Below are positions 15,394-32,692 of a DNA stretch of 64,000 nt, in pieces; positions within the stretch are counted from its first letter, which is position 1, and each line of letters starts with the position of its first letter. The stretch covers positions 620,001 to 684,000 of the forward strand of contig NZ_BMXU01000001.1 in the NCBI RefSeq assembly GCF_014651915.1, in the 5' to 3' direction. The notes under the pieces were generated by a model, which saw nothing but the letters and a program-made list of their open reading frames with translations, searched no databases and was not told where the DNA came from. The position numbers were made by a program, and so were the translations under genes. The stretch comes from Parvularcula lutaonensis. Its GTDB lineage: Bacteria; Pseudomonadota; Alphaproteobacteria; Caulobacterales; Parvularculaceae.

Positions 15394-15774
<381 letters not shown>

Positions 15775-15802
15775 TCTCGTCTCCTCAGGGAGATCCGAGC
15801 GG

Positions 15803-15838
15803 AAAACCCCGCGGCAGCGATGCCGCGGGGTTTTTCTT
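15803..15838 (+). terminator. intrinsic terminator after rplL
   Basis: A ten-base-pair stem CCCCGCGGCA / TGCCGCGGGG with a GCGA tetraloop is followed by TTTTTC. Confidence 0.96.
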
Positions 15839-15920
15839 TGCCGGGGGTGGTGAGCATAAAAGCATTTGATTCAGGGGGGTGATCCGTCCACCTTCGTGCA
15901 GGGCTTATGGGGAACTCGTT

Positions 15921-16532
15921 ATGATGTTGGTTTTTGGCGATGGGTCGCAACAGGCGGACCTGTCCCGTGAGGGTATTGGGGCTGCCCTCCGGCGTCTCCG
16001 CCATGACGGGCTGCGAATGGTATCGCTGGTCCGGACCCAGGACGAGTGGCTGATCGCCATCGCCTGCGAGACGGGTTTTGAACTCTTCTACCTGAACGAC
16101 GCCAAGCTCGATTACCGGCGTCGTCTGGGCGTGAAGTCGGCCGATGATGTCGCCGTCATCATGCTGGCGTTCGCTGATGGCGATACGTCATGGTCGCAAG
16201 GATTCGAGGCCATCACGGCTGACGAAATCATCTTCGCCCTCGGCGAGGATGAGGACGAAGTCGCCGGGTATCTCGCAAACCTTCCCGCCGGGATCGCGCT
16301 CCTCGTTGCGTTTGCCGTCGACACCCCTCTTGGTTTCGGAACCATTCTGGATGCGTTCATCGAGGGCGCCGCGGCAGGATTGATCGGCGGTCTGGGCGGC
16401 GGGCTTGCGGCAGGTGTGTTCCAGTCGAACCTGCCCAAGGCTGTTGGTTATCTCGCGGTCCTGTTTGCCATCGCAGGCAGTGTCGGTGCCTTTCTCGCGC
16501 TCCGCTGGTTCGCGCTGGGGCTCGTTGGCTGA
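15921..16532 (+). CDS. hypothetical protein with C-terminal membrane helices
   Basis: A 203-residue protein of unknown family. Residues 1-115 look like a soluble alpha/beta domain (LVFGDGSQQADLS, a hydrophobic DEWLIAIACETGFELFYL strand pair). The C-terminal 80 residues hold two or three hydrophobic segments, including a glycine-rich stretch (AAAGLIGGLGGGLAAGVF) suited to helix packing. ATG 15921 (with a second ATG directly after) follows GGGGA at 8 nt; a GTG at 15879 is less likely. It begins the 8.5-kb block between rplL and rpoB. No signal peptide is visible. Confidence 0.65.
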   Translation: MMLVFGDGSQQADLSREGIGAALRRLRHDGLRMVSLVRTQDEWLIAIACETGFELFYLNDAKLDYRRRLGVKSADDVAVIMLAFADGDTSWSQGFEAITADEIIFALGEDEDEVAGYLANLPAGIALLVAFAVDTPLGFGTILDAFIEGAAAGLIGGLGGGLAAGVFQSNLPKAVGYLAVLFAIAGSVGAFLALRWFALGLVG

Positions 16533-16593
16533 CAGGAAGGCCACTTGCCGGTGGAACCCTCCCATGCAAGCGTTTGCGCAAGGGAGAGCGACC

Positions 16594-17472
16594 ATGCGGT
16601 TCATGACAGCGTTTGCGGCCATGCTAGCACTCGGTGCCTGCAATGATGATGGTGCCTATAATGCACAGCAGCCTGTCTACGCCGAACTTGCCGAGGAAGC
16701 GGACACGGTTGCCGTAACCGGTGCTCGGTTAAAAAGCGGCGCACCGCCGACGGAGCAGGGCGGGGAGCCGTCTGCGACCCGCTACCTCGCCTATGCGTAT
16801 AGCGGCACGCTGCTCCTCCCCTCGGAATCGGTGAAGCCGGTCCTCAGCCGGCACGAGGAAGCCTGTATCGCCGCGGGCCCCTCGACTTGTCAGGTGCTGG
16901 AGAGCTCTGTCGAGGAACGAAACGCGGACAGTGTGTTCGGGACACTCAGTTTCCGGGCGACACGCGACTATATGAACGCCTTCCGTGCAGGGCTGGCAGC
17001 GGAGGCGGAGGCCGTAAAAGGCTCTGTCGTCAGCATGAATGCCAGCGTGGAAGACCTGACCCGGGAGATCCTCGACACTTCCGCCCGGCTCGAGGCGCAG
17101 AGGAAGCTGCGCGACCGTCTGCTCGTCCTGCTTGAGAAAGACACGGACGATGTTGGCGACCTGCTTCAGGTGGAGCGTGAGCTGGCACGCGTGCAGTCCG
17201 AAATCGAGAGCACCGAGAGCTGGCTCCGTGCCCTTGAAGGCCGGGTCAGCATGGACCGGATGACGCTGTCCTACCAGTCGATCCGAAAGCCGGTGACCCA
17301 GAGCACCGGCCAGCCACTGGCGGAAGCATTCCGCAACTTCTTCTACGTGGTGTCCGAGAGCCTCGCGGCAGTTATTCTCTTTGTCGCGGCGGCGCTGCCA
17401 TGGCTGATCGTGGCGATCCCCGCGCTCTTCCTTCTCCGCTTCGCGATCAACAGGATCCGCCGGAAACCCTGA
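16594..17472 (+). CDS. DUF4349 domain lipoprotein
   Basis: A 292-residue lipoprotein. The signal peptide ends in LALGAC, lipidated at C16. After a beta-rich region with YSGTLLLPSESV come the DUF4349 hallmarks: two long helices with heptads (VEDLTREILDTSARLEAQRKL and VERELARVQSEIESTESWL), then a short beta part (MDRMTLSYQSI) and one transmembrane helix near residues 255-280 with a basic tail. The family is common in cell-envelope contexts, but its function is unknown. ATG 16594 follows GGGAG at 8 nt; an upstream in-frame ATG at 16564 would spoil the signal peptide. Confidence 0.84.
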   Translation: MRFMTAFAAMLALGACNDDGAYNAQQPVYAELAEEADTVAVTGARLKSGAPPTEQGGEPSATRYLAYAYSGTLLLPSESVKPVLSRHEEACIAAGPSTCQVLESSVEERNADSVFGTLSFRATRDYMNAFRAGLAAEAEAVKGSVVSMNASVEDLTREILDTSARLEAQRKLRDRLLVLLEKDTDDVGDLLQVERELARVQSEIESTESWLRALEGRVSMDRMTLSYQSIRKPVTQSTGQPLAEAFRNFFYVVSESLAAVILFVAAALPWLIVAIPALFLLRFAINRIRRKP

Positions 17473-17558
17473 TCGGGCCGGACTGCTGCTGACTGGTGTG
17501 TCGGCTTGGCAATCGCTCCGGAGCGCGTAACCTCTGAAGGAGCGAGGAGGGCGGCCCG

Positions 17559-18488
17559 ATGAGCGTCCACCACTACCTTTTGTTTTTCGCGCCGGTTTTC
17601 CTGACGATGATCGCCGTCGAAGTTTTTGTCGGCCGCAAGCGGGGACTGGCGCTCTACTCACGGGGCGAGACAACGGCCTCGATCGCGATCGCCCTCGGCC
17701 AGCGTCTCCTAGCGCTGTTCCCGCTCAGCCTCGTCGGTTTCATCACCCTGTCGGCTTATGAGAACCGGCTGTTCGAGATCCCGAGCGATGCCTGGTGGTA
17801 TATCCCGCTGCTCTTTGTGCTGATGGAGTTCGCCTATTACTGGTTCCATAGGCTCAGCCATGGCGTGCGGTGGCTCTGGGCGACGCACTCTGTCCATCAT
17901 TCGATCGAGGAGATGAACATCCTCGCTTCCTACCGGTTCGGCTGGACCGGCAGGATCTCGATGGGCGGCCTGATCTACGCGCCGCTGGCCCTGCTGGGTT
18001 TTCCGCCTGCGCATTACCTTGCGATGCTGGCGGTAAACCTGATGTACCAGTCATGGCTGCATACCGATCTCATCGGGAAGCTCGGCCCGCTCGAGGGGAT
18101 CGTGAACACGCCTTCGGCGCACCGGGTCCACCATGCGAAGAACGCCGATTACCTGGACCGGAACCATGGTGGTGTGCTGATGGTCTTCGACCGGCTCTTC
18201 GGTACCTACCAGGCCGAGAGGGACCACGTCCCGGTGGAGTACGGCCTGGTGACCCCGTCAGGGTCAAAAAACCCGCTCAGGATCGCTTTCCACGAATGGG
18301 GCAGCATGCTGAAGGACCTGCGGCGGCATCGGCCTGCCGCGTGGCCGGGTCTGCTCTTCGGCCCGCCCGGATGGGCCCCGGACGGGCAGGCTCGGACCAG
18401 CGCAGACATCAGACGGGAGTACCGTAACAGCCTGGGCGCGCCGGATGCGAACCTGGCGATTGCGCCGTCTGTTCAGCCTGCGGAGTAG
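17559..18488 (+). CDS. sterol desaturase family protein (second di-iron hydroxylase)
   Basis: A 309-residue membrane oxygenase. The histidine clusters are H97-x3-H101 (HRLSH), HSVHH (110-114) and HRVHH near 190. N-terminal helices (about 5-22 and 45-65) and a central hydrophobic pair near 150-175 give the expected topology. A C-terminal extension of about 60 residues after the last histidine box is hydrophilic. Only the histidine framework is shared with the hydroxylase at 4162-4899; the rest differs, so it is probably a paralogue with another lipid substrate. It lies 86 bp after the DUF4349 gene on the same strand. Confidence 0.88.
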   Translation: MSVHHYLLFFAPVFLTMIAVEVFVGRKRGLALYSRGETTASIAIALGQRLLALFPLSLVGFITLSAYENRLFEIPSDAWWYIPLLFVLMEFAYYWFHRLSHGVRWLWATHSVHHSIEEMNILASYRFGWTGRISMGGLIYAPLALLGFPPAHYLAMLAVNLMYQSWLHTDLIGKLGPLEGIVNTPSAHRVHHAKNADYLDRNHGGVLMVFDRLFGTYQAERDHVPVEYGLVTPSGSKNPLRIAFHEWGSMLKDLRRHRPAAWPGLLFGPPGWAPDGQARTSADIRREYRNSLGAPDANLAIAPSVQPAE

Positions 18489-18497
18489 GCGCGCGGT

Positions 18498-19124
18498 CTA
18501 CTGCGCTTTCGCAGCTTCCATCTCAGCGATCAGCGCCATGTCCCGGGCCTTGGCCTTGCGGAAGGGGTCTCGGCCGGTGAGACGGCCTGCATAGGCCGCG
18601 AACGCGTCTCGCTTAGGCAGCGTCTCGAACTGGAGGCCCCAGACAATCTGGCTGCCGAGATAGACGTCGGCGGCGGAGAAGCGCGCGCCGCAGACATAGT
18701 CTCGATCGCTGAGGAGGGTTTCGAGCACATCGACGACCTTGTCGTAGCTGCCGAAACCGAAGGAGCGGCTCTGTTCTTCGGTGGGAACGATACCCGCCGA
18801 GTTCATGCTCACCGCCTGCTCGACCGGCCCAGCGGCAAAGAACATCCAGCGGTAATAGTCGTGCCTGTCTTCAGGCGTGGGGCCGAGACCCTTTTCGGGG
18901 AAGGCGTCAGCGAGATAGGCGCAGATCGCGGCGACCTCGGTCACCACCTTGCCGTCATGGCGGATGGCGGGCACTTTCCCCATGGGATTGATCGCGGTGT
19001 ATTCCGGACCCTTCATTTCGGGTCCGTACTGGATGATCCGCTCTTCATAGGGCGCGCCAACCTCTTCGAGCATCCAGCGGACTATCTGCCCGCGCGACAT
19101 CGGGTTGGTGAAGAATTCCAGCAT
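18498..19124 (-). CDS. glutathione S-transferase family protein
   Basis: A 208-residue GST. The thioredoxin-like domain has MLEFFTNPMSRGQIVRWMLEE, where a serine of the NPMSRG turn is the likely thiol-activating residue, the cis-proline motif GKVPAI, and the glutathione-binding VTEVAAICAYLAD. The helical C-domain contains ARFSAADVYLG, the usual N-capping motif. The class is uncertain but near the Beta/Nu-like bacterial GSTs. ATG 19124 begins the conserved strand; the longer reading upstream has no family support. It converges on the hydroxylase gene, whose stop is 9 bp away. Confidence 0.9.
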   Translation of the reverse strand: MLEFFTNPMSRGQIVRWMLEEVGAPYEERIIQYGPEMKGPEYTAINPMGKVPAIRHDGKVVTEVAAICAYLADAFPEKGLGPTPEDRHDYYRWMFFAAGPVEQAVSMNSAGIVPTEEQSRSFGFGSYDKVVDVLETLLSDRDYVCGARFSAADVYLGSQIVWGLQFETLPKRDAFAAYAGRLTGRDPFRKAKARDMALIAEMEAAKAQ

Positions 19125-19291
19125 GGCCTTGCCCTCGGATTGCCGCCTGAAGGGAACAAAAGATGTACGCTCCCGCAAGGATGGATCACAGCTCTCGGGA
19201 AAACTCCTGCCGCTAGGGAGTCGGCAGGGGTCCCGCGCACACCTCAAGAACCGCGAGCGGAGTGCCCGCGGCTCCTTCGATCGTGCGACAC

Positions 19292-19588
19292 TCAGAATCG
19301 GGCGCGGTCTTGGTAGGCTGCTGTCAGGACAGGTTCGTCGAGTTCGGTGATCACGCCCTCAATGGCGTCCTCGGTACAGCGACGGATCTTGTGGCCAGGC
19401 GTGCCGTGGCGTTCGCCCTGCTTGCAGAAGCGGCGGGCCTTGGTTTCCAGCCGGTCGAGCAGCGCTTCGCGCGCACCTTCGGATCGAAGCTCGTTCTCGT
19501 CGAAGGCGAAGGTGAAGTCCTTGGCCTCGGCGGCTCCAGCGGGATGGGCTGCGTTGAGGATAGCGGCGGTGAGAAGGGTGGCGATCAT
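19292..19588 (-). CDS. UrcA family protein (secreted, small)
   Basis: A 98-residue protein with a signal peptide (MIATLLTAAILNAAHPAGAA) and the pattern of the UrcA family: FAFDENELRSEGAREALLDRL, two cysteines (FCKQG and RRCTEDAIEGVI) that should form a disulfide, and a closing helix with LDEPVLTAAY. UrcA proteins are abundant in Caulobacterales and Sphingomonadales, and their function is unknown. ATG 19588 gives the clean signal peptide. It is divergent from the large membrane-bound regulator, 270 bp away, which makes it a candidate target of that regulator. Confidence 0.78.
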   Translation of the reverse strand: MIATLLTAAILNAAHPAGAAEAKDFTFAFDENELRSEGAREALLDRLETKARRFCKQGERHGTPGHKIRRCTEDAIEGVITELDEPVLTAAYQDRARF

Positions 19589-19858
19589 GGTCGTGGTCTC
19601 CCCGGGGTTGGTGACCAGACCCAGATGGACCGCGACCCCGCTGCACAACCCGATGGCAGGCTGACGTTTTGCGGAGGGCTTTATGATGGCCACCATCAGT
19701 CAGATTTCGAGGGGAAATTCGCGCCTGCTGGCGATTCCATCAGGGTTTCATCAGGCCGCCATCCGGCGATTTCAGGGCCTCACGGGTGGAAGATCGTCGC
19801 AAACGATCTCATCTCGACGGGGAGTCATGGGGCAGGATCGCAAGGGAAGGAACACGAC

Positions 19859-21835
19859 GTGCCGGAGAATGCCCGCCAGAAACTGGTCCAGATCGGTGAG
19901 TTCCTCTTCGATCGCAGCCGGAACCTGCTCACGCGCGGCGAGGCCGAGCAAACCCTTGAGCCCAAGGTTGCCGATCTACTCGCCCGGTTTGCGAGGGAAC
20001 CCGGCCAGACCCTTTCTCGCGGCACGCTGCTCGACGATGTCTGGGGCACCCGCATCGGTTCCGATGAGAGCCTGACTCGCGCAGTATCGCTCCTGCGCAA
20101 GGCATTCAAAGCCGATGAGGGGGCCACCTATATCGAGACCGTGCCAAAGCGGGGCTATCGCCTCGTGGCGCCGGTGGGGGATGCCGAGCAGGCGCCTCGG
20201 GTCGAGACACAGCCTGCTGCGAAAGCCGCGGAGGGTCGAAGCGAGCCCGGAGCCGGTGAGGTTCGGCAACCGGAACATGCAGGGCCGTCAGTGTTCCGGC
20301 GTTCCGGACTGAGCGGGGCCGTGGCCCACGTAACATCGAGTGTCGTCTATAGCGTCGCCGGTCTTGCCGCGCTGGCGATCATGGCGATCGTGTTGGTCAC
20401 CATGGTGGAGATGGCGAAGAAGCGGGACATGATGGCGAGCGGGGGCATCGCTGTCGCGAGCTTCACCGGCGAGGCGTCCAGCGAGCGTTCTTCCGAACTC
20501 GCCGCGTCGCTGGCGGAAAGACTTCCCGCGGTCCTGATGGCCAATACACTCGATGTCCGCACGGATCCGGAGCGGGCAGGGCTGTTGCTGTCAGGTTCGG
20601 TGGATCATCAGGGCGGGGACATTTTTGTCGTCTCCGTCCAGCTTGTCTCCCAAGCGACGGGATCGGTCCTCTGGGCGGCCCAGCTCAAGCGTCATGACGA
20701 CGAAGGCTCATCCATCCGCGACGACGTCCTCGGATCGGTGGGTCACGCCCTTGGCTGTGCGATCAAAGGCTTTGACGTCTACGACATGAACGCAGCCTTT
20801 CTGCCGATCGCCATGCGCTATTGCAGCGCCTCGCGGGATGCACCGGGCACCGCCGCGCATATCGAGGCGATGAACGATCTCCTCGGTATCGCTTCGGACA
20901 ATGCTTCGGTCTGGGCTGCGCAGGCCGTCGCGCAGGTGCTTTGGGCGCAGCAGAACACAGGCCGTGCGGACCGCATTCCCGAAGATGCGCTGGACGCTCT
21001 CGACAATGCCTTCAGCATGGCGATCGAAAAGGACGCCCCGGCGATCGCGCTGGCCGAAGTGATGACATCCGCCCCAGGAGCGCTTTCGCTCTCCGAGCGG
21101 GAAGAGAAGCTGCGGGTTGCAGCGCTCGACCACGGGCCGATGCGCAATCTCGCGCGGAGCCTCCTCGCCGAGCAGTTCCTCAGCGTGGGAAGGCACGCCG
21201 AGGCCGAGGCGCTGGCCACCGCGATCAGGAACACCGATCCTGCCCATGCAGGTGCTTACAGGCTGAGCGTGCTGGCCGAGACGCAGGACGGGAACTGGGA
21301 ACGGGCCCAGGCGTTCCAGGAGGCGGGGGAGCGGTTCGATCCGGAGGCGGATTGGCTGGCGTCAAGCGGTTTCGATCTTGCGCTTTACCGAGGCGATCTC
21401 CCGACAGCTGCGGCTCTCTGGGAAGAGCAGGGAGCGAAAGCCTTCATTGGCGTCGGCGGTTCTGGTACCGCCTGCATCGACCTGTTTCTCGAGACTGCCC
21501 GCGCCAAGCAGGCGGACGACCTTGCGAGTGTTCGTCTCGACCGCGCCTGTATCGGCGTCGATCCAGTGACACGAGCGCGGCTCTTCCTGGCACTTGGCGA
21601 AAACGTCTTTGCGGCGCAGGAGCTGACCCGTGTGGGGTCGGGAACAACACCCGACGCAAGGCGGGCGCTGTTCGCGCCTGCCTTCGACCCGTTCCGGAAT
21701 GACGAGAGGTTCTGGGGTGCTCTCCAGCGCACTGGCCTGATCGAGAGCTACATAGAGACCGGGCGCTGGCCGGATTTCTGCGGCGATCGCCGTTTCACCC
21801 CGGCCTGCGAGGAGGCCGCCCGCTTTGGGAGCTGA
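19859..21835 (+). CDS. ToxR/CadC-like membrane-anchored transcriptional regulator
   Basis: A 658-residue one-component regulator. Residues 5-105 are an OmpR-type winged helix ending in ETVPKRGYRLVAPV, the hallmark of CadC-like proteins. A basic/Pro-rich linker is followed by one transmembrane helix at about 162-183. The remaining 470 residues are periplasmic and mostly helical with TPR-like repeats. They also include a beta segment with FTGEASSERSSELAASLAERL, as in homologues that carry a TolB-N-like part. The start is GTG 19859, preceded by GGAAGG at 8 nt; the open frame extends further 5', but that part overlaps UrcA and lacks homology. It converges on the S9 peptidase with a 12-bp gap. Confidence 0.87.
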   Translation: MPENARQKLVQIGEFLFDRSRNLLTRGEAEQTLEPKVADLLARFAREPGQTLSRGTLLDDVWGTRIGSDESLTRAVSLLRKAFKADEGATYIETVPKRGYRLVAPVGDAEQAPRVETQPAAKAAEGRSEPGAGEVRQPEHAGPSVFRRSGLSGAVAHVTSSVVYSVAGLAALAIMAIVLVTMVEMAKKRDMMASGGIAVASFTGEASSERSSELAASLAERLPAVLMANTLDVRTDPERAGLLLSGSVDHQGGDIFVVSVQLVSQATGSVLWAAQLKRHDDEGSSIRDDVLGSVGHALGCAIKGFDVYDMNAAFLPIAMRYCSASRDAPGTAAHIEAMNDLLGIASDNASVWAAQAVAQVLWAQQNTGRADRIPEDALDALDNAFSMAIEKDAPAIALAEVMTSAPGALSLSEREEKLRVAALDHGPMRNLARSLLAEQFLSVGRHAEAEALATAIRNTDPAHAGAYRLSVLAETQDGNWERAQAFQEAGERFDPEADWLASSGFDLALYRGDLPTAAALWEEQGAKAFIGVGGSGTACIDLFLETARAKQADDLASVRLDRACIGVDPVTRARLFLALGENVFAAQELTRVGSGTTPDARRALFAPAFDPFRNDERFWGALQRTGLIESYIETGRWPDFCGDRRFTPACEEAARFGS

Positions 21836-21847
21836 CGGCCAACACTT

Positions 21848-23788
21848 TTAGTCCGTTCCGAGATGGTCTTCCAGGAACTTCGTGATTTCCTGGTACAGAT
21901 GGACGCGGTTGTTCAGTTTCCTGACGGAGTGCCCTTCATCGGGCCAGCGCAGGTACTTCACCTCGACCCCGCGCTCCCGAAGGGCCTTCACCATGCGGTC
22001 GCTTTCGGAGACCGGGTCGCGGGGATCATTCGCGCCGTGGCTGAAGAGCATCGCGGCCTTGATCCTGTCGACATTGTTGATGGGTGAGATCGAGGCGAAG
22101 AAAGCCCGTTCCTCGGGGTCTGTGATGTCGCCATATTCGATGACGTCCGATGCCTTGAGATAGGGCGATGCCTCCTCCAGCGCGCGGACCCAGTCAGAGA
22201 CGCCCACGAGCGAAACGCCCGCCTTGAAGAGATCAGGATACGCGCCAACCGCTGCGTTGGTGAGGTAGCCGCCATAGGACCCGCCCATGATTGCCACGCG
22301 CTCTCCATCAAGGCCGTCCGCCTGCTTCAGCCACGCCACGGCATCGGCGACATCGTCAACGGCCTTGGTCCGGTTCCGTCCGTTGTCCATCCTTGCAAAG
22401 CTCTTCCCGAAGCCCGTCGAGCCGCGGAAGTTAAGGTCGAGCACGGCGATGCCGCGGGTGGTCAGGTACTGCGCCAGCGGTTCGAAGGTGGGACGGGCCT
22501 GCGCCGTGGGGCCGCCATGGACCATAATCACCACCGGCGCATTGCCTTCCGTATCAGGACGATAGAGAAGCCCCTGCAGTTCCACTCCGTCACGGGCCTC
22601 GAAACGGACAGGCTTTGGGGCCTGGAAAGATGCCAGGTCGAGGCCGCCATCCTGCGGTTCCGCCAGGATATCGAAGCGCGGGCGGCGCTTGGTGAGGTCG
22701 AGGAGGCCCACCGTGCCGGGCGTTGTCGGTCCGCGCAGGGTCACAGCCAGCTTGGCCGCGTCCTTCGCGCCGTCGAGGCTGTAGATTCCTCGCGGCAGTT
22801 CGGGGAGGAATACCCGGCGGTTGTTCCGGGTGACATCAAAGGCACCGATGCCCGAATAGCCGTCCTCATTCTCGGTCCAGACGAGGTAGCGGCCCCCGGC
22901 GAGTTCGACATCCTCGATATCCCGGTCGTCATGCTCGTGAAGGAAGGAGAGAGCTGCGTTGGCGTCGCCGGTTTCCTCGAAGGCTTCGAGATCGAAGAAG
23001 GCGAGGGCCTGGAATTCGCGCCCGTGGTTCGTCGCCATCCAGAAGCCCGACCCATCGGGCTTGAAGACGAAGCTCTGGTAGTTCGAGATATCCTCGGGAT
23101 TGAGGAGCGTCGTGAGCTCTCCGGTGCTGACGTCCAGCAAGTGGAGGACGTTGCCATCCTCGCCGCGGGTCTCCGTCACGATCACTTCGTCGGTGCCCGG
23201 ACGCCATGCCTGCGGGAAGAAACCGAACCGGCCTTCATAGACCTCGCGCACGCCGTCGTCGTCGCTGAGATAAATGTCGAAGTCCGTGCCGTTCCGGCGT
23301 GTGGTCGCGAACACGAAGCGGTCGCCATCATCGTCGAAGTCACCAAAGCTGTTGAACGCCTCGGAGGCATCGAGCAGCCTCTCCTCGTGGTGGCCGTCCA
23401 CGGTGAGGAGGGTATATCCCACCCGCTCGTTCCCGTCCGTGTCAGCGGCAATCCTGATCCTGCCGTCAGGGGCGAAGCCAAAGCCCGAAACACCTGTGCC
23501 AAAGGTCAGCTGTTTCGGCTGGCCGCCTTCATCGGGAACGGCGAAGACCTGCGGCTCGCCCGTGATGGAGCTGGTGAACAGGACCGTCTCGCCGTCGGGG
23601 CTGATCGTTCCGCCCGAAGCGCCGGTGACCTTGAAAAAGCGGACAACGTTCGGCGGTTCGGCGCCAGCAAGACCGACGCTTGCCGGTGCAGGCGAGGGGA
23701 TGTCCTCGGGAAATTCCCAGTCTTGCTCGGATTGCGAGGCCTGCAGGGCGATCGCCGCGGCCGAAGCGGTCAGCATGGTGATGAGCAT
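21848..23788 (-). CDS. S9 family prolyl oligopeptidase-type peptidase, secreted
   Basis: A 646-residue serine peptidase. A signal peptide (MLITMLTASAAAIALQA) is followed by a beta-propeller of repeated blades with GGTISPDGETVLF-type starts (about residues 50-395) and an alpha/beta hydrolase domain (400-646). The nucleophile is S504 in GGSYGGY, the acid lies in HGANDPRDP, and the base is in DEGHSV. HGGPTAQ forms the oxyanion region. It would cleave peptides, perhaps after proline or alanine, in the periplasm. GGAGG stands 7 nt before the ATG. The gene is divergent from rpoB across a 525-bp gap. Confidence 0.93.
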   Translation of the reverse strand: MLITMLTASAAAIALQASQSEQDWEFPEDIPSPAPASVGLAGAEPPNVVRFFKVTGASGGTISPDGETVLFTSSITGEPQVFAVPDEGGQPKQLTFGTGVSGFGFAPDGRIRIAADTDGNERVGYTLLTVDGHHEERLLDASEAFNSFGDFDDDGDRFVFATTRRNGTDFDIYLSDDDGVREVYEGRFGFFPQAWRPGTDEVIVTETRGEDGNVLHLLDVSTGELTTLLNPEDISNYQSFVFKPDGSGFWMATNHGREFQALAFFDLEAFEETGDANAALSFLHEHDDRDIEDVELAGGRYLVWTENEDGYSGIGAFDVTRNNRRVFLPELPRGIYSLDGAKDAAKLAVTLRGPTTPGTVGLLDLTKRRPRFDILAEPQDGGLDLASFQAPKPVRFEARDGVELQGLLYRPDTEGNAPVVIMVHGGPTAQARPTFEPLAQYLTTRGIAVLDLNFRGSTGFGKSFARMDNGRNRTKAVDDVADAVAWLKQADGLDGERVAIMGGSYGGYLTNAAVGAYPDLFKAGVSLVGVSDWVRALEEASPYLKASDVIEYGDITDPEERAFFASISPINNVDRIKAAMLFSHGANDPRDPVSESDRMVKALRERGVEVKYLRWPDEGHSVRKLNNRVHLYQEITKFLEDHLGTD

Positions 23789-24313
23789 GGTTGCGCCTCC
23801 TTCTTGTTCCCGCCTCGTTAGCGTCGAGGCTGTCGCGGGGTCGAGGCGCTCAGGCAGCGTCGAAGGGGCACTGGGCAGCCCGCACGCCCACGCGTAGCCG
23901 CGGCGCCGGTTGGGCGTGTCACGGCCATGGGCGATGGTCCTTGCCTCGCGCCCGGGCGGGTGTCTCCCTGGTTCGTCGAGCGATGCTGATCGCGAGCGGT
24001 GATGAACAGGGCGTGGCGAAAAAAGCGCTTGTCAATCACTTAGCTTTGCATTAACGCGCGCGTTTCCGGGGTCGGCGGCCTTCCCGGAACTGGCTGTGCA
24101 CGTGCAAACGAACTTCGTTGTAAACAACTGATTTTTTCGAGCGCTTCATACCCCGCTCGCCCGATGGGCGCGGGGTATTGGCGCTTTCACTCGCCGTCGC
24201 GTTCCGCCGGACGCGACTTGGAGCGCCTGAAGTCTCGGGCGTTCGGAAATTCTGGGTGCCCCGCCGGGCGCCCGCAGGAACAAAGGCCCACCGGGGTCAG
24301 TTAAGGGCGGTTT
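23789..24313 (+). promoter_or_regulatory. long rpoB upstream region with structured leader
   Basis: This 525-bp gap must hold both the S9 peptidase and the rpoBC promoters. The left 240 bp show nothing specific. At 24029 TTGTCA and at 24051 TTAAC lie in an AT-rich island that could be a promoter; TTAG-N7-TTAAC (24040-24055) also resembles a CtrA box with one mismatch. Three strong stem-loops follow: ATACCCCG-ct-CGCCC-GAT-GGGCG-CGGGGTAT (24148-24178), GTCGCGT / ACGCGAC (24196-24217) enclosed by GGCGCT / AGCGCC (24180-24227), and GGGTGCCC-CGCC-GGGCGCCC (24254-24273). None has a T run. Confidence 0.6.

Positions 24314-32692
<8,379 letters not shown>

Follow-up and report, generated by a model that had tools for sequence, protein, structure and literature searches.

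A conserved short reading frame in the rpoB leader of Parvularculaceae as a candidate leader-peptide attenuator

The rpoB locus and its leader

We analyzed a 64,000-nucleotide stretch of the Parvularcula lutaonensis genome (contig NZ_BMXU01000001.1, positions 620,001 to 684,000 of the forward strand), from here on referred to as the window, and all coordinates below are counted from its first letter. On the forward strand, rpoB occupies positions 24314–28399, as read from its ORF and its Pfam Rpb2 domains, and is followed by rpoC (28448–32692; ORF and domain reading). A likely Shine-Dalgarno sequence for rpoB, AAGGG, was read from the sequence on the same strand at 24303–24307. In this genome, rplL (15571–15771) lies 8.5 kb upstream of rpoB on the same strand, and the 8.5 kb between the two genes (15775–24313) hold unrelated genes, which a domain search showed to encode a fatty acid hydroxylase, a transcriptional-regulator-domain protein, and a prolyl oligopeptidase. 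By the first 200 residues of RpoB, the closest records in our collection were Aquisalinus luteolus (88%) and a metagenome genome of the Parvularculaceae (86%). Aquisalinus, too, is placed in Parvularculaceae, and we take this to be the family whose genomes are compared below.

The region preceding rpoB folds more stably than its dinucleotide shuffles, both over the whole leader (24029–24313; z −3.22, with one of 200 shuffles as low) and over 24120–24330, where a fold of −104.1 kcal/mol compares with −84.7 (sd 4.0) for the shuffles (z −4.80, none of 200 as low). A previous reading of the sequence alone (the sequence-only reading) had placed three strong stem-loops here, and these do exist, but it overlooked a hairpin further 5′ (24064–24089) and a short ORF (24096/24102–24131). 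At the gathering threshold, Rfam families matched only two tRNAs in the window and nothing at the leader; below threshold, six matches were obtained at 23750–24600, with E values of 2.9 or worse. The Rfam family L10_leader (RF00557), which we take to be the leader RNA of the rplJ–rplL genes, the usual neighbors of rpoB, was searched for in this genome up to E 10 without a match; in a control search, RF00557 found matches in 12 of 14 genomes, three of them over the cut-off.

A conserved core and its distribution

When the rpoB upstream regions of 50 genomes of the family were compared, a box of the form GGC...(G)ACGTGC was present in 47. In the window, the box reads CTGGCTGTGCAC running into ACGTGC (24090–24101, forward strand; alignment A1). 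Nine of its columns (GG, GC, A, and GTGC) are invariant in A1, which holds 43 of the 47 sequences (G014, G018, G057, and G058 being omitted), a constancy that is partly by construction, the box having doubled as the search anchor. The core around it has a regular order: a promoter-like site in many genomes, a GC-rich 5′ hairpin (P1), the box, an A/T-rich stretch, and a GC-rich hairpin (P3), often with a U-run. A palindromic DNA operator, GCACGTGC, was considered as well and rejected, as the palindrome is not retained in genera g2, g7, and g8. We also note that the G058 leader (L123) contains repeated ACGTGCTTC-like units upstream of the box GTG, before the short frame.

The promoter was predicted by a comparative hexamer scan as the best TTG-anchored pair, which in the window consists of a −35 element TTGTCA (24029–24034) and a −10 element ATTAAC (24050–24055) separated by a spacer of 15 (24029–24055, forward strand). 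The best pair ends 44–54 nt before the box in 31 of the 47 genomes, and in only three of 10 in the genus of the window (g1); a stricter sigma-70 scan of 23700–24500 gave no promoter site. From the promoter-like site, transcription is predicted to start near 24062, upstream of all of the leader hairpins rather than downstream of them, the case that the sequence-only reading had set against its own proposal. P1 (24064–24089, forward strand) was identified in a fold of 24060–24135 and would lie at the very start of the transcript. Its covariation was scored in alignment A2, comprising the 24 of 47 sequences that belong to g2, g6, and g7 and thus no member of the genus of the window: 96.1% of the cells are paired, four of 10 pairs show changes on both sides (a result reached by 29 of 500 shuffles), and the covariation score of 0.279 compares with 0.171 in the shuffles, none of 500 of which scored as high.

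We built a covariance model of P1, the box, and the short frame (R1) from 43 of the 47 sequences. At E ≤ 0.1, R1 matched 53 of the 62 genomes examined from the family (window E 5e-8), and its best match lay at the rpoB leader in 49 of the 62, as well as in G042, where the contig ends before rpoB and the position is assumed. The best match lay elsewhere in G011, G041, and G057 (E 0.002 at the rpoB leader of G057). The weak match in G041 (E 0.014, with a frame of 20 codons) was taken as chance. G011 lacks the element, and both its RpoB start (MALSFTEKKR) and its leader resemble those of family f2; judged by these sequences, the contig is probably foreign. R1 had no match in G056, G058, and G043, all of which have rpoB, the upstream sequence of G043 being too short. 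The box is also missing from G013, which has a readable TTG frame of 18 codons ending ...ESKN*, and from before the second rpoB of G032 (72% identity). Of seven extra regions that were fetched, four yielded leaders, and the second rpoB of G032, G043, and G041 did not.

Outside the family, R1 found nothing better than E 1.3e-4 in a search of 398 genomes of the order (family members included), which was run with stricter filters and 11 scored candidates per genome, so that weak relatives may escape it. A regular expression for the box, applied to the 600 nt upstream of rpoB at 80 loci, matched L002 and L003, both from the family, and gave a loose match at 308 nt in L024; a single loose match (G093) was obtained among 40 genomes of families f2–f5. 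The rpoB leaders in 40 genomes of four other families are different ones, and 14 loci scanned among the leaders of other families gave no Rfam match. By eye, 15 genomes of family f3 in the same order (L174–L187 and L213) share another conserved rpoB leader, CCGAGGC..GGTC..GCCCTCCGACC..GCGAAGG...; 10 of these loci were scanned without an Rfam match, and in 14 of the 15 genomes no rplL end was found in the fetched upstream stretch. Three genomes of family f4 (L188–L190) have yet another apparently conserved rpoB leader, TTTATTGCGTTTGA...CCCGAGCAGGCAATCATTCGGCAGCC-like, again by eye.

The short leader reading frame

The short ORF of the window begins at an outer GTG (24096) or at an inner, family-wide GTG (24102) and ends with TGA at 24129–24131 on the forward strand; it would encode MHVQTNFVVNN or MQTNFVVNN, respectively, and was recognized by conservation of its frame and stop. 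Reading from the box GTG to the first stop in frame gives nine codons in all 10 g1 genomes (TGA in seven, TAA in three), seven codons in all six g3 genomes, and 10 codons in both g8 genomes that have the box. Overall, the frame has 7–11 codons in 44 of 47 genomes, the deviants being G035 (18 codons) and G059 and G060 (16 codons each), and all three stop codons are used. Four further leaders (G017, G038, G042, and G053) have seven or nine codons each, G038 and G042 being near-identical to G044. G056, in which the box is altered to TCGTGC, retains a 10-codon frame, as do its two genus mates.

The frame occupies a stretch of low GC content (36%) between GC-rich hairpin regions (75 and 69%), and in such A/T-rich surroundings stops arise frequently by chance. 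The other two frames were compared. Across the 10 g1 genomes, one of them has its first stop at codons 6, 5, none, 5, 48, 6, 12, 28, 3, and 10 and the other at codons 66, 40, 5, 10, 6, 11, 5, 11, 5, and 2; as judged from these sequences, both alternative frames scatter and the leader frame is fixed. The g1 stop column contains TGA and TAA only, whereas in codons 3, 4, 7, and 9 each of the three positions varies. Composition-preserving column shuffles reproduced the g1 outcome nine times in 100,000 and the g3 outcome in about 1.0%. In g7, the stop column of the 17 genomes with nine codons contains TAG and TAA only, and shuffles reproduced this outcome in 0.2%, a partly circular figure, as 17 of 21 genomes were picked for having nine codons. 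Further, in 20 of the 21 g7 genomes the first stop of frame 1 falls at codon 3, an equally fixed place, and g7 thus does not single out the leader frame, the sequence there being simply conserved. We conclude that conservation of the leader frame in position, frame, and stop is well supported by the sequence comparison.

These data also bear on the alternative that the box and the 5′ hairpin form a structured or protein-binding RNA element and that the short frame is a by-product of conserved A/T-rich sequence. This would account for a GTG that is invariant in 47 genomes, for nine invariant columns in 43 aligned sequences, for the covariation of P1, and for the fixed stop of another frame in g7. 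It does not sit well with g1, which varies freely and in which the stop nevertheless changes only among stop codons while the other frames scatter, nor with G056, which loses the exact box yet keeps the frame, and we consider it unlikely.

The features of the frame and of its peptide are as follows. The start codon is GTG in 47 of 47 genomes; with the box as search anchor, this invariance is again partly by construction, but on the aligned sequences such uniformity would be uncommon if the GTG did no more than start translation, and it points to a further constraint. The frame GTG has a weak Shine-Dalgarno match ∼7–12 nt upstream (AGG or TGG), the GGC of the box may offer ribosomes a weak binding site, and the GTG is largely base-paired in the predicted structures (0.27 unpaired). 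The phase of the frame relative to rpoB is not fixed among the 47 genomes, and the frame is therefore not an N-terminal extension of RpoB; its end lies 94–267 nt upstream of rpoB in the family genomes. Residue 5 of the peptide is Ile or Phe in 45 of 47 cases, and residue 3 is Arg in 30 of 47. Variability in g1 is 0.43, 0.47, and 0.51 at the first, second, and third codon positions, and as the third does not clearly stand out from the others, conservation of the peptide is no more than loose. No run or consistent repeat of one amino acid was found in the 47 frames or in that of G056. The codons TTA and GTA are used zero and four times, respectively, in 13 large ORFs of the window, yet one of the two occurs in 24 of the 47 short frames, the rarity of both being known for the window only.

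Leader hairpins and the proposed attenuation

Hairpin P3 (24139–24186, forward strand; −33.9 kcal/mol for the fold of 24136–24192) begins 7 nt past the ORF stop in the window. The sequence-only reading had seen a stem-loop at 24148–24178, which is present but constitutes only the apical part of this longer hairpin. In alignment A3, consisting of three of the 10 genomes of the genus (G000, G005, and G004), the six outer pairs of P3 are kept in all three sequences, with no double change in support of the hairpin. Among 47 family genomes, the homologous region is terminator-like in 34, compared with 5–15 in 10 rounds of shuffles, where terminator-like means a single hairpin of −10 kcal/mol or lower followed by at least four T in five bases, a loose criterion under which some T-runs are short. 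This criterion superseded an earlier automatic hairpin search, which gave mixed structures. By genus, the counts are six of 10 in g1, four of five in g2, five of six in g3, zero of one in g6, 16 of 21 in g7, one of two in g8, and two of two in g9. In g9, the frame extends into the hairpin arm itself, and the segments of G059 and G060 were begun earlier in the terminator search because their frame enters the hairpin. The remaining 13 genomes are without the hairpin and U-run combination; the window is among them, with the hairpin retained and the U-run absent. Hence, the view that none of the hairpins is a terminator holds for the window, where there are no terminator-like sites, but by this loose criterion not for most of the family. 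Consensus folds revealed no antiterminator pairing common to the genera. By eye, a CCGCG-N3-CGCGG mini-hairpin was visible only in g7, in many of its leaders.

Three further hairpins follow on the forward strand. H2 (24196–24217) has CCGCCGG in its loop region, and its inner helix keeps eight of eight pairs in the three close relatives of A3, three of them with compensatory double changes; the larger stem-loop proposed previously at 24180–24227 thus survives as this inner helix, but inspection of A3 shows that its outer pairs are not kept. H3 (24254–24273), with the same CCGCCGG in its loop region, is present in the fold of the window as proposed, and the two relatives in A3 have a hairpin at its place by eye, but its pair-by-pair support in A3 is weak (58 and 83% of cells paired). 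A small hairpin, H4 (24285–24298), is predicted by folding immediately upstream of the rpoB ribosome-binding site, at the place of which the two relatives appear by eye to have a different stem. The covariation that the sequence-only reading had called for is therefore present, in P1 (g2, g6, and g7) and in H2. RNAalifold over whole alignments found little, which we think is due to the length variation of P1 and P3. We note that the two successive hairpins sharing the loop-region CCGCCGG (24196–24217 and 24250–24280), which also occur in G005, may, from their sequence, represent a repeated binding site.

Leader-peptide attenuators are laid out in this way, with a short frame that ends close to a terminator-like hairpin. 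The sequence data point to the leader being such an attenuator, shared across the family, through which rpoBC transcription would be coupled to translation, a reading to which we assign a probability of about one-half. Transcription would begin just upstream of the 5′ hairpin, and a ribosome would initiate at the box GTG and read 7–11 codons in most species, up to a stop codon shortly before the GC-rich hairpin, which often has a U-tail; formation of this hairpin during passage of the polymerase would depend on the state in which the ribosome is on the short frame, and rpoBC transcription would thereby track translational activity. We infer attenuation itself from this arrangement, as we do translation of the frame, termination or pausing by the hairpin, and both the signal to which the leader would respond and the direction in which it would do so. 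The hairpin of the window, in which the U-run is missing, may work through pausing, through processing, or as a weak terminator. The claim of the sequence-only reading that this leader exerts control gains from the family-wide conservation of the core, the location of the best R1 matches, and the covariation of P1 and H2; an attenuator, which it had also suggested, is plausible, but what points to it is the short reading frame that it missed.

In the parts of the literature drawn on here, the trp and ilv attenuators, including that of mycobacterial ilvB1 (PMC13236596), likewise have a short upstream frame and a terminator-like hairpin close behind it, ahead of the operon. The rpoB element differs in that it precedes RNA polymerase genes, has no amino acid run and no defined antiterminator, and lacks the U-run in some species. 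Because there is no run of one sensed amino acid, we did not class it as a trp/ilv-type amino acid attenuator, and a general translation signal is likelier than a single amino acid. A leader peptide that senses global translation capacity, tunes the synthesis of β and β′, and so couples the transcription machinery to ribosome activity is a possibility that we put forward only tentatively. In E. coli, an attenuator between rplL and rpoB and autogenous control of β and β′ are already known, the former being, like the element proposed here, a transcription-control signal before rpoB that uncouples it from rplL; the portions of these papers considered here do not mention a leader peptide, whereas in the rpoB element the hairpin is preceded by a short frame that is conserved and by a predicted promoter (PMC6181997, PMC4670729). 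In 36 of 50 genomes, rplL ends no more than 560 nt before rpoB, which would be compatible with a spacer attenuator of the E. coli type, but many leaders have a promoter-like site ahead of the element. Among Alphaproteobacteria, the excerpted Caulobacter work similarly describes short upstream frames, such as a small CDS before trpS, and start sites that often lack a Shine-Dalgarno sequence (present at 24.6%), in keeping with the weak site of the rpoB leader; unlike the present element, rpoB is not mentioned in that excerpt (PMC4117421). Among the matches listed from the open literature, for which titles and abstract openings were covered and in which subscription journals are largely missing, there was no earlier report of a leader peptide before rpoB.

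An effect of short-frame translation on the translation or stability of the rpoB mRNA, rather than on transcription, would suit the 13 of 47 genomes, the window species among them, that are without the hairpin and U-run, as well as the strong hairpins that separate the frame from rpoB in the window. Against this, the frame ends at least 94 nt and up to 267 nt from rpoB, an unsystematic look noticed no conserved sequestration of the rpoB ribosome-binding site, and U-runs are enriched in the family; we regard such mRNA-level control as improbable. It is rather improbable, too, that the hairpins are mere 5′-UTR stabilizers or RNase processing sites: the E. coli rplL–rpoB spacer contains an RNase III site, and the long GC-rich hairpins of the window species have no U-run, but the conserved frame and its stop would be left unexplained. 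In the 50 upstream stretches, in which the rplL end was identified by its last residues, proximity of rplL to rpoB was found in only one of the 10 genomes of the genus of the window, and the leader element is carried by 33 of the 36 genomes with rplL within 560 nt, that is, 33 of the 47 element-bearing genomes keep rplL directly upstream of rpoB. Because these 33 also carry it, the element is, on the sequences compared, not dependent on rplL displacement and not born of rpoB losing its neighbors. The idea of the sequence-only reading that rpoBC acquired a new form of control, autogenous or responsive to growth rate, on losing the ribosomal protein genes upstream of it draws on H2–H4 having been seen in G000, G005, and G004, none with rplL within 560 nt and the only genomes in which they were sought systematically, but is very improbable given the core in those 33 genomes. 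As to autogenous binding by polymerase, the Rfam searches gave no sign of it.

Control of the amount of RNA polymerase is described as incompletely understood even in E. coli in the part of the literature cited here (PMC4670729). The proposed attenuator, a family-wide short frame and hairpin before rpoBC, would connect the supply of polymerase to translation in a simple way that can be tested, and its conservation suggests that translation helps to set the RNA polymerase level; the family has named strains, e.g. Aquisalinus luteolus NH6-79. Finally, the leader peptides of g7 have no likeness to the start of RpoB, and when 24102–24131 was compared with 24314–24343, and likewise in L100, some leader peptides of the genus of the window were seen to match the RpoB N terminus in register, e.g. 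MQRSFVKKN in G002 and MAQSFVEKK, hinting at feedback via early RpoB translation.
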